Below, piece by piece: positions 44,392 through 46,781 of a stretch of 64,000 bases of DNA. The stretch comes from an uncultured Roseibium sp. (GTDB taxonomy: Bacteria > Pseudomonadota > Alphaproteobacteria > Rhizobiales > Stappiaceae): contig NZ_CANMNP010000005.1 in NCBI RefSeq assembly GCF_947499295.1, forward strand, positions 186,001 to 250,000. The letters run 5' to 3'. A model generated the notes under the pieces. It was not told the origin of the DNA and did not search any database. It saw only the letters and a program-made list of their open reading frames with translations. Both the position numbers and the translations under genes were made by a program. The number at the start of each line of letters is the position of its first letter. The first letter of the stretch is position 1.

Positions 44392-45084
44392 TTAAGCTGC
44401 AGCTTCGACTTCCGGTTCGCGAAGAACGTAGCCGCGTCCCCAAACCGTCTCGATATAGTTTTTACCGGATGTTGCTGCCGCCAGTTTCTTGCGGAGCTTA
44501 CAGATGAAGACGTCGATAATCTTCAGTTCCGGCTCGTCCATGCCACCGTAAAGGTGGTTCAAGAACATTTCCTTGGTGAGCGTCGTTCCCTTGCGCAGGG
44601 ACAGAAGCTCAAGCATCTGGTATTCCTTGCCGGTCAGATGCACACGCTGGCCGCCAACTTCGACGGTCTTGGTATCCAGATTGACCTTCAAGTCACCGGT
44701 GATGATCACCGATTGTGCATGGCCTTTGGAGCGGCGAACGATTGCGTGGATACGCGCGACAAGCTCATCCTTATGGAAGGGCTTGGTCATGTAATCGTCG
44801 GCGCCGAAGCCGAGGCCACGAACCTTGTCTTCAATTCCCGCGTTACCGGAGAGGATCAGGATCGGTGTCTTGACCTTCGAAACGCGGAGTGTCCGAAGAA
44901 CCTCGTATCCGGACATGTCCGGCAGGTTCAAATCCAACATGATGATGTCGTAGTCGTACAGTTTGCCGAGGTCGATACCTTCCTCGCCAAGATCTGTCGT
45001 GTAGACGTTGAAGTTCTCGGACTTCAGCATCAACTCGATGCTCTGCGCTGTGGCGCTATCATCCTCAATCAACAATACACGCAT
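44392..45084 (-). CDS. ctrA: Cell-cycle master response regulator CtrA
   Basis: OmpR-type regulator of 230 residues with the CtrA-specific sequence: [20 protein letters not shown], phospho-Asp51 in [33 protein letters not shown], and DNA-binding domain [54 protein letters not shown]. It binds TTAA-N7-TTAA and controls division, envelope and motility genes in alphaproteobacteria. The C-terminus ends in Ala-Ala, a usual ClpXP signal in CtrA. The frame is open to 45123 but the protein starts at 45084. The upstream region holds dense GANTC sites. Confidence 0.96.
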
Positions 45085-45455
45085 GCCAATCCCCTTGTTC
45101 TGCCTTTCCTGGGCAAGTCGCAACGGCTCTGTCGGTGCCTGCTACGAAGGACTGTGTTAACCCCGACTCAAAGCTATCGGTTAATGGTTAACAAAATATG
45201 ATTCGCAACGGCAAGCTTCGAAAAGAGGAAACTGTGAACAACGATCAACTTATTGAATCCCCAGAAAAAACCCAGATTCATAAGTCTTAATGTTGAACTT
45301 TAAGAAACGGGTCTAACCGATTCCGTTCAGATTCCTTTCAACAAAGCCGAAATGACTTCGAAATGGCTCTCGCTTGTCAGCCTTCCAAACGTTAAGATTA
45401 ACCAGAGTCGTAAACGATAGGTTACCAAAACCGTTAACGTGTGAAGGAATTTTCC
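45085..45455. promoter_or_regulatory. Divergent ctrA / fliI control region with GANTC cluster and CtrA-like sites
   Basis: Seven GANTC methylation sites occur at 45165, 45200, 45255, 45275, 45319, 45330 and 45405, against about one expected. CtrA-like sequences are TTAA-N7-TCAA at 45157-45171 (one mismatch, overlapping the first GANTC) and the half-site TTAACCAT on the minus strand at 45184-45191. No gene of its own is seen. In Caulobacter, CcrM methylation of GANTC and CtrA autoregulation set ctrA timing; the same logic is inferred here. Confidence 0.7.
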
Positions 45456-46781
45456 GTGAAGGCGCTTTTCGCCGAGATTGATTCGCTCATGTCGACCGAG
45501 ATTTATGGCCGGGTTACTGCGGTTCAGGGCCTTCTCGTGGAGATCGCGGGACCTATTCACGAGATGAGCGTCGGCTCGCGACTTTTAATCGATAATGGTG
45601 AGGATAACCCAAAGGTTCCCGCCGAAGTTGTCGGTTTCAGGGAAGGTCATGCTCTTTGCATGCCGTTTTCCGGCCTCGAAGGCGTGCGCATGGGCTGCAA
45701 AGCCGTCATAAAAGCCCGGGAGAGCGTGGTTCATCCAGGTAGCGAGTGGCTTGGTCGAGTCGTTAACGCACATGGTGAACCAATTGATGGTAAAGGAGAC
45801 CTTCCAAATGGCGGAGTGCCTCGCAAATTGCGAAGTTCACCGCCACCGGCTTCGGAACGCAAACGAGTCGGACCGCCGCTTGATCTGGGCGTCAGAGCAC
45901 TCAATACCTTCGTGACGTGCTGCGAAGGGCAGCGGATGGGCATCTTTGCCGGCTCCGGTGTGGGCAAATCGGTATTGATGTCGATGCTGGCTCGAAACAC
46001 CAATTGTGATGTTGCCGTTATTGGTCTGATCGGTGAACGCGGCCGGGAAGTGCAGGAGTTTATCGAAGACGATCTGGGCGAGGAGGGTCTGGCGCGCTCG
46101 GTGGTCGTCGTGGCGACCTCTGATGAGAGTGTATTAATGCGCCGTCAGGCTGCATATCTTTCAATGACCGTTGCTGAACACTTTCGGGACGAAGGCAATA
46201 ACGTCCTTTGCATGATGGATTCGATTACGCGATTCGCAATGGCGCAGAGAGAAATCGGCCTTTCAGTGGGCGAGCCGCCGACATCCAAAGGTTATACACC
46301 AACTGTTTTCACCGAACTGCCTCGGCTTCTGGAGCGAGCCGGTCCTGGTCTGGAGGGAACCGGATCGATCACTGGCCTGTTCACCGTTCTGGTTGAGGGC
46401 GACAACCACAATGAACCGGTTGCGGATGCCGTTCGCGGTATTCTGGATGGTCATGTGGTCATGGAGCGGGCCATTGCGGAGCGCGGACGATATCCGGCAA
46501 TCAATGTGCTAAAGTCTGTGTCCAGGACGATGCCGCGCTGCGTGCCGGAACAATCGCTGCCCGTGTTGCGCAAGGCGCGGCAGCTATTGTCGACCTATAC
46601 CGATATGGAAGAACTGATCCGTCTTGGTGCTTATCGCAAGGGATCCGATCCGGTCGTGGACGAGGCAATTCACAGGTTCGAGTTGATAGATACTTTTTTG
46701 AATCAGGAAAAAGACGAATCAACGTCACTTTCTGACGGTTATCTGCAACTTGCCAACCTTTTGGAAATGACTCAGGGGTAG
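45456..46781 (+). CDS. fliI: Flagellar export ATPase FliI
   Basis: 441 residues, F1-beta-like ATPase of the flagellar type III export apparatus. Walker [12 protein letters not shown], the [19 protein letters not shown] stretch, Walker [20 protein letters not shown] and the [20 protein letters not shown] block identify FliI. A GTG at 45441 is in frame but lacks an RBS. The GTG at 45456 is preceded by AAGGAA at six bases and is the better start. fliJ follows 28 bases after the stop. Divergent from ctrA, whose product controls early flagellar genes in relatives. Confidence 0.94.

Follow-up and report, generated by a model that had tools for sequence, protein, structure and literature searches.

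A conserved cluster of GANTC sites, two of them inside predicted CtrA boxes, upstream of ctrA in Roseibium and other Hyphomicrobiales

We analysed a 64,000-nt stretch of DNA (the window), which we take to be positions 186,001-250,000 of NZ_CANMNP010000005.1 (NCBI RefSeq assembly GCF_947499295.1) from an uncultured Roseibium sp. of the Stappiaceae. The host genome is Roseibium-like (Stappiaceae, Hyphomicrobiales), and the stretch lies on contig 5 of a 6.4-Mb assembly. In the window, ctrA and fliI diverge from an AT-rich gap of 371 bp (45085-45455; 44% GC), which extends from the ctrA ATG at 45084 on the minus strand to a fliI GTG at 45456 (Table 1). This GTG is kept in the family and is directly preceded by a stop codon in several congeners, which indicates that the gap coordinates, the same as those in the original prediction, are correct. 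A scan of 45050-45500 gave no match to the sigma-70 consensus or to terminators. The conservation of the ctrA leader in the genus exceeds the needs of a ribosome-binding site, and a leader RNA element or an sRNA target is possible there. The ctrA frame is open upstream to a TTG at 45123, which would allow an extension of 13 residues (45085-45123); the ATG at 45084 fits other CtrA proteins.

Table 1. Features in and around the ctrA-fliI gap (window coordinates; family counts refer to 84 gaps)
Feature	Position	Strand	Evidence
ctrA coding sequence	44392..45084	-	Response_reg and Trans_reg_C domains; 99% identity to Roseibium aggregatum CtrA
ctrA leader (5' untranslated region), strongly conserved	45085..45155	-	columns mostly invariant or nearly so in 45 congeners
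Predicted CtrA box B, TGA-N7-TTAAC, overlapping GANTC 45165	45156..45170	-	one mismatch from TAA-N7-TTAAC; minus-strand reading TGAGTCGGGGTTAAC
GANTC, family level, in box B	45165..45169		71/84 family gaps
Predicted CtrA box A, TCA-N7-TTAAC, overlapping GANTC 45200	45187..45201	-	one mismatch from TAA-N7-TTAAC
GANTC of the GAATCA...GTTAACCATT composite, order-wide	45200..45204		67/84 family gaps
GANTC, genus level	45255..45259		37/84, all 37 in the genus
GANTC, genus level	45275..45279		31/84, all 31 in the genus
GANTC pair element: GANTC 45330, GANTC 45319, then GGTTAG and TTAA toward ctrA	45300..45334	-	conservation in family and order
GANTC pair members	45319, 45330		65/84 and 69/84 family gaps
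GANTC, mostly genus level	45405..45409		35/84; 32/45 in the genus, 3/39 other gaps
CtrA-box block assigned to the distal ctrA promoter (P1), GGTAACCTATCGTTTACG toward ctrA; box 45410-45424	45409..45426	-	family, named loci, order sample
fliI, divergent neighbour of ctrA	45456..46781	+	ATP-synt_ab and T3SS_ATPase_C domains; start set by family comparison

The gap contains seven GANTC sites, and an eighth is found at 45480 within fliI. Under a first-order Markov model for the gap, with 356 bp used, 1.40 sites are expected and the probability of at least seven is 0.0004. The rate in the own genome was 1.02 per kb (1290 sites in 63 stretches of 20 kb, which cover 1.26 Mb of 6.4 Mb), and the expectation from this rate was 0.38 (Poisson P = 1.6e-7). 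Elsewhere in this sample the maximum per 371-bp stretch was six, reached at four places, and among 979 sampled segments with a GC content of 48% or less it was five. GANTC is depleted across the window as a whole (87 sites versus 310 expected by shuffling), and 356-bp stretches with at least five sites occur there only in the ctrA-fliI region. The claim of the original prediction that seven sites lie where about one is expected was thus confirmed, and the cluster is not a product of chance by local composition.

The family search found CtrA at the cut-off in 86 of 87 genomes. After exclusion of the genome without CtrA (G089), one with an incomplete start (G088), and one locus without a recognised fliI start (L158/G046), 84 gaps were compared. 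All 84 contained GANTC, with at least one site within 300 bp. The 45 gaps of the genus, own genome included, are 370-375 bp long and contained four to nine sites (mean 6.96), a density of 18.7 per kb versus 3.3 per kb in the adjoining coding DNA on the fliI side. Other palindromic pentanucleotides of the same make-up averaged at most 1.7 in the gap comparison and the best non-palindromic one reached 3.0 with both strands counted, so that the GANTC excess tops every other pentanucleotide of this make-up. Four of the seven sites keep a fixed geometry beyond the genus, namely the GANTC pair, the GANTC linked to the CtrA half-site GAATCAGAnTTTGTTAACCATT, and the family-level site in the second CtrA box. 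YGAKTCG, the extended form reported for GcrA activation in Caulobacter, is matched in this gap at 45165 (minus strand) and 45200 (plus strand). In the family, 70 of the 71 sites at 45165 have this form, pointing toward ctrA; at 45200 it is found on either strand in 47 of 67. The pair members have it in 13 of 65 (45319) and 6 of 69 (45330) cases, and the sites at 45255, 45275, and 45405 in none. The extended form was reported to be dispensable in Brevundimonas (PMC7987155).

With the S. meliloti consensus TAA-N7-TTAAC as reference and one mismatch allowed, three CtrA boxes were predicted in the gap, whereas the window's own rate gives 0.12 per 371 bp. One box by the looser TTAA-N7-TTAA rule is unremarkable in the gap (P = 0.28). 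Boxes A and B each overlap a GANTC, with no GANTC between them, and the third box is free of such overlap. The box with an internal GANTC that the original prediction had pointed out does exist as box B; box A, which it did not mention, is the better conserved of the two. GANTC-N8-TTAAC was present in most family gaps (67 of 84) and in about half of the named loci (27 of 51); in an order sample of 60 genomes, 24 had it. The composite of GANTC and CtrA half-site is GAATCAgaNTTTGTTAACCATT, and in the 24 order-sample genomes it reads cGAATCAga-TtTGTTAACCATT. Since the TCA-N7-TTAAC part is only one mismatch from the S. meliloti consensus, the GANTC forms the distal half of a predicted CtrA box. 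In the own genome GANTCA-N7-TTAAC has three occurrences, of which one is at ctrA, versus six for the backward pattern with both strands counted.

The GANTC pair sits about 235 bp before ctrA. In the family its members are separated by N6 in 48 of 84 gaps (44 of 45 in Roseibium and four of five in one other genus) and by N4 in 17 of 84 (17 of 18 gaps of three other genera), whereas two genera, g17 (one gap) and g18 (15 gaps), lack the pair. Alignment of 28 loci of the order gave the consensus GAGTC-N4-GARTC-RSTTAg followed by TTTCTTAAnGTG, in which the central base of the second GANTC is A or G and the outer four bases are invariant. The N4 pair was present in 29 of 60 order genomes versus 0 of 60 for each of seven control motifs. 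The N6 pair was found in three of 60 versus up to two of 60 for control motifs, and the N4 pair alone is therefore distinctive in the order sample. The 11-bp pair was rejected as a general genome motif (eight GANTC-N6-GANTC sites in the own genome versus 20 backwards). The longer pattern GAGTCN4GARTCRSTTA had 82 matches in 75 of 249 genomes versus 10 for the backward pattern, as counted from the table of matches. Among the 40 matches in genomes whose ctrA place is known, 29 were at 200-250 bp before it and 11 elsewhere. The pattern also occurs away from ctrA: among 30 loci read, 18 were not ctrA, eight of these being from one family, and 12 were. In that family, f6 (L256-L263), a similar GAAAAAT-rich stretch follows the pattern at seven of the eight non-ctrA places.

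The comparison was extended to 80 named ctrA loci and to an order sample; the order samples are draws of at most 121 and 249 genomes rather than the whole order. A GANTC excess was common in the named Hyphomicrobiales loci, with six sites per 370 bp in Brucella tritici, six in Xanthobacter, and five to seven per 370 bp in four Bradyrhizobium loci. GANTC was weak (0-2) in five Rhodobacterales loci, and 0-1 was also found in some Hyphomicrobiales (L029, L044). Relative to the ATG, the pair lies at about 215-255 bp in the named loci and a GANTC exactly 14 bp before the half-site GTTAACC; in some loci, a GANTC is found 21-23 bp after this half-site. The order search found CtrA in 113 of 121 genomes, from which 60 were taken, the first per family outside the own family (46) and 14 chosen second ones. 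These 60 genomes averaged 4.08 GANTC per 370 bp, with at least one in 57, and a site within 300 bp of ctrA was present in 53 of 60 (39 of 46 when one per family was counted) and missing in seven. A published survey gave this 300-bp feature for half of Rhizobiales ctrA promoters, in a sample that differs from ours (PMC8116508). Fixed geometry was absent in most of the 46 families. The 9-bp (N4) pair at 195-275 bp was found in 14 families versus 0.31 by random placement (at most four in 2000 trials), and the 14-bp link between GANTC and half-site in 13 families versus 0.41 (at most four). The check proposed by the original prediction, how dense GANTC is in this gap across relatives, thus came out positive.

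Of the 84 family gaps, 74 contain the GGTAACCTATCGTTTACG block on the fliI side; it also occurs in 10 of the 51 named loci and in 10 of the 60 genomes of the order sample. It lies about 320-345 bp before the ctrA ATG and is present in this gap as in the rhizobial two-promoter type. In eight named loci (Rhizobium, Sinorhizobium fredii, Shinella, Mesorhizobium, and other Rhizobiales), the block is located about 320-330 bp upstream of ctrA and fliI was not found next to ctrA. The distal ctrA start of S. meliloti has a 291-nt leader and a CtrA site upstream (PMC3616915). Because the block is shared with rhizobia that lack an adjacent fliI and the distal start of S. meliloti has its CtrA site upstream, we assigned the block to ctrA P1. 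The P1 start is predicted near 45387, which would place GANTC 45405 near -20; the start was transferred from S. meliloti via S. fredii, with a possible error of several bases.

The own genome encodes CcrM as a 385-aa frame (in L120) with N6_N4_Mtase (DNA methylase) and RAMA domains, the latter found in all 31 genomes searched. GcrA was detected in the own genome (E = 2.4e-56) and in all 87 family genomes, in 86 of them above the cut-off. The original prediction had named a missing CcrM homologue as evidence against methylation control; the homologue is present with both domains, and so is GcrA. In four genomes of one or two contigs (6.0-6.4 Mb), ctrA lies 0.76-0.99 Mb from hemE, which we take to be a neighbour of the replication origin. 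As to the activity of these proteins elsewhere, CcrM acts late in the cell cycle and GcrA favours fully or hemi-methylated GANTC (PMC8116508, PMC3667746). GcrA of B. abortus and S. meliloti can replace that of Caulobacter (PMC3667746), and GcrA peaks in B. abortus show 4.4-4.7-fold GANTC enrichment (PMC6813329).

The comparison thus shows the conserved sites in their fixed geometry, the genes for CcrM and GcrA, the CtrA-box matches, and similar GANTC numbers whether or not fliI is adjacent. Given this anatomy and the published facts on CcrM, GcrA, the competition of CcrM with CtrA on a synthetic promoter, and the gcrA promoter of A. tumefaciens, methylation-coupled control is the best reading: the gap is, somewhat more probably than otherwise, the region through which CcrM, GcrA, and CtrA control ctrA, and the GANTCs in the boxes would allow CtrA and CcrM to compete. 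Late in the cycle CcrM would methylate the GANTC sites; the replication fork would then turn them hemi-methylated, and they would stay so until CcrM acts again. This state would be recognised at GANTC near the ctrA promoters by GcrA together with the housekeeping sigma factor. The competition between CcrM and bound CtrA would take place near the proximal promoter, at the two GANTCs that lie in CtrA boxes. In this way CtrA may keep methylation away from its own promoter, which would become accessible again through replication and CtrA breakdown. Methylation of the sites, GcrA binding, CtrA/CcrM competition, an effect on timing, and the promoter positions are what we infer from sequence comparison and published work, and the putative competition at boxes A and B is the distinctive part. 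More tentatively, many Hyphomicrobiales may share an old methylation-sensing switch with a box GANTC at the proximal promoter and a pair upstream, in which CtrA and CcrM compete at the ctrA promoter; we regard this as possible rather than probable. Of the methylation control that the original prediction proposed, the machinery, the non-chance cluster, and the density in relatives are supported, but the timing of fliI is not.

Where the CtrA boxes of a synthetic promoter contain GANTC, CtrA and CcrM have been reported to compete (PMC5172544), and methylation lowers the activity of the A. tumefaciens gcrA promoter (PMC11514494). Several published results speak against methylation-coupled control. 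A prediction of GcrA control over ctrA covered Caulobacterales and Sphingomonadales only (PMC7987155). In S. meliloti, CtrA was reported to have a weak effect on P1 and none on P2, and the authors invoked additional factors (PMC4433202). Cell-cycle gene promoters were described as not enriched in GANTC in Ensifer (PMC8725594), and in an earlier comparison promoter GANTC counts did not let methylation control be derived (PMC2877005). In our own comparison, the families without the geometry (most of the 46), the seven of 60 genomes that have no site within 300 bp of ctrA, and the lack of a sigma-70 consensus match in the gap also count against it. Caulobacter with an unmethylatable ctrA promoter was reported to have no abnormal phenotype (PMC3973325).

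This Caulobacter result also favours the alternative that GANTC is kept as part of promoter elements and CtrA boxes, with methylation incidental and GANTC otherwise depleted in coding DNA. Such an origin fits the four sites of seven that lie in conserved composite elements, where base conservation extends well beyond GANTC, and some methylatable bases in A. tumefaciens may be core promoter bases (PMC11514494). It accounts less well for the sites at 45255 and 45275, which lie outside recognised elements while the count in the genus stays at four to nine, for the second GANTC of the pair, which varies only at its centre, and for control pentanucleotides without a comparable excess. We consider this alternative rather unlikely, a little less probable than the shared switch. 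Chance or AT-richness, for which the base composition of the gap could be cited, was rejected as having a negligible probability by the local-composition model, the AT-rich segments with only up to five sites, the conservation in all 84 family gaps, and the pentanucleotide controls. It is also improbable that the array is a divergent device that times both ctrA and fliI, although it lies between the two genes with GANTCs at 45405 and, in fliI, at 45480, and the genes are neighbours in the family. In the named loci used for adjacency (L010-L060, the 51 loci that also served for the composite counts, minus the too short L027), fliI is adjacent to ctrA in 21 of 50. These 21 loci had a mean of 4.3 GANTC and the pair in 13, and the 29 loci without adjacent fliI had a mean of 3.7 and the pair in 16. 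The similar numbers, together with the P1 block shared with rhizobia and the GANTC nearest fliI (45405) being largely confined to the genus, leave the divergent device and the fliI timing of the original prediction unsupported. From the loci compared, the array belongs to ctrA, and fliI merely abuts its control region.

The pair may have a function of its own between P1 and P2, and could be a third promoter or a platform for GcrA. It was dropped as the core of the mapped P1 promoter because of the 291-nt leader of the distal S. meliloti start. A third, unrecognised ctrA promoter activated by GcrA would have the pair between -35 and -10, with GGTTAG as the -10 element and TTAA near the start. 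The order-wide consensus, in which RSTTAg is followed by TCTTAA in the 28 loci, and the 29 of 40 placed matches at 200-250 bp before ctrA are consistent with such a promoter. The ctrA gene of S. meliloti has 5' ends beyond the two main starts, which its authors suspect to be processing products (PMC3616915), and Caulobacter has a third ctrA promoter, with starts that carry GANTC between -35 and -10 forming one temporal class (PMC4287350). Against it, a -35 element is not visible and the sigma-70 scan gave no match, 11 of 40 placed matches are away from ctrA, the mapped distal start of S. meliloti is upstream of the pair, and no mapped start was found at the pair. A third promoter thus has a limited probability, about that of the shared switch, and it can coexist with methylation-coupled control.

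That GANTC occurs upstream of ctrA is already known, with counts by order (PMC8116508). The ctrA P1/P2 region of Caulobacter crescentus (PMC4287350, PMC8116508, PMC3667746) is similar in having GANTC upstream, CtrA boxes, CcrM and GcrA, and a ctrA gene in the origin-side part of the chromosome. Its single GANTC at P1 (about -28) and another downstream of the P2 start contrast with the seven here, which have four in a geometry fixed beyond the genus, a pair, and GANTC inside two CtrA boxes. The S. meliloti region has P1, P2, and five CtrA sites (PMC3616915, PMC4433202). It shares the distal CtrA-box block, as compared through S. fredii (L033), and the proximal GTTAACC box, the GANTC pair, and the box GANTC in the same order with similar spacing. 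It differs in that fliI is not adjacent and that the pair spacing is N4 in S. fredii and N6 here, and the available parts of both papers describe no role for GANTC. The synthetic promoter of PMC5172544 resembles the present gap in having two CtrA boxes that each overlap a GANTC. It is a man-made Caulobacter reporter with a third GANTC between the boxes, whereas the present arrangement is natural, is located at ctrA, lacks a GANTC between the boxes, and in its box A part extends across families. The gcrA promoter of A. tumefaciens has six GANTC in 250 bp before a cell-cycle master gene in the same order (PMC11514494), but that is another gene.

In the literature searched on GANTC with ctrA, CcrM, GcrA, Brucella, and Rhizobiales, we found no description of the pair or the composite, and overlap of CtrA box and GANTC appeared only in PMC5172544. 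The search covered openly available main texts, and a prior description is possible. If the shared switch exists, it would give the CtrA/CcrM competition, demonstrated until now on the synthetic promoter alone, a conserved natural counterpart. Methylation-coupled control would bear on the timing of ctrA transcription in rhizobia and their relatives. With GANTC within 300 bp of ctrA in 53 of 60 genomes, and with its position in many of them fixed relative to a CtrA box, a few point mutations would put such control in this order directly to the test.

The own ccrM and gcrA genes are without such an array, with one GANTC in the 371 bp before the listed ccrM start and one within 371 bp of the end of the GcrA domain match, which is not the exact start codon. 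As for the four other places with six GANTC in the own-genome sample, three are in L224 (C16:120001-140000) at about 13.9-14.5, 17.8-18.5, and 19.5-20.0 kb; they surround hemE and an mnmE-like gene (named by eye) and are perhaps near the replication origin. The fourth, in L219 (C7:100001-120000) at 13.0-13.6 kb, overlaps the start of a response-regulator-like gene and is upstream of a 1226-aa frame resembling a B12-dependent ribonucleotide reductase (names by eye).
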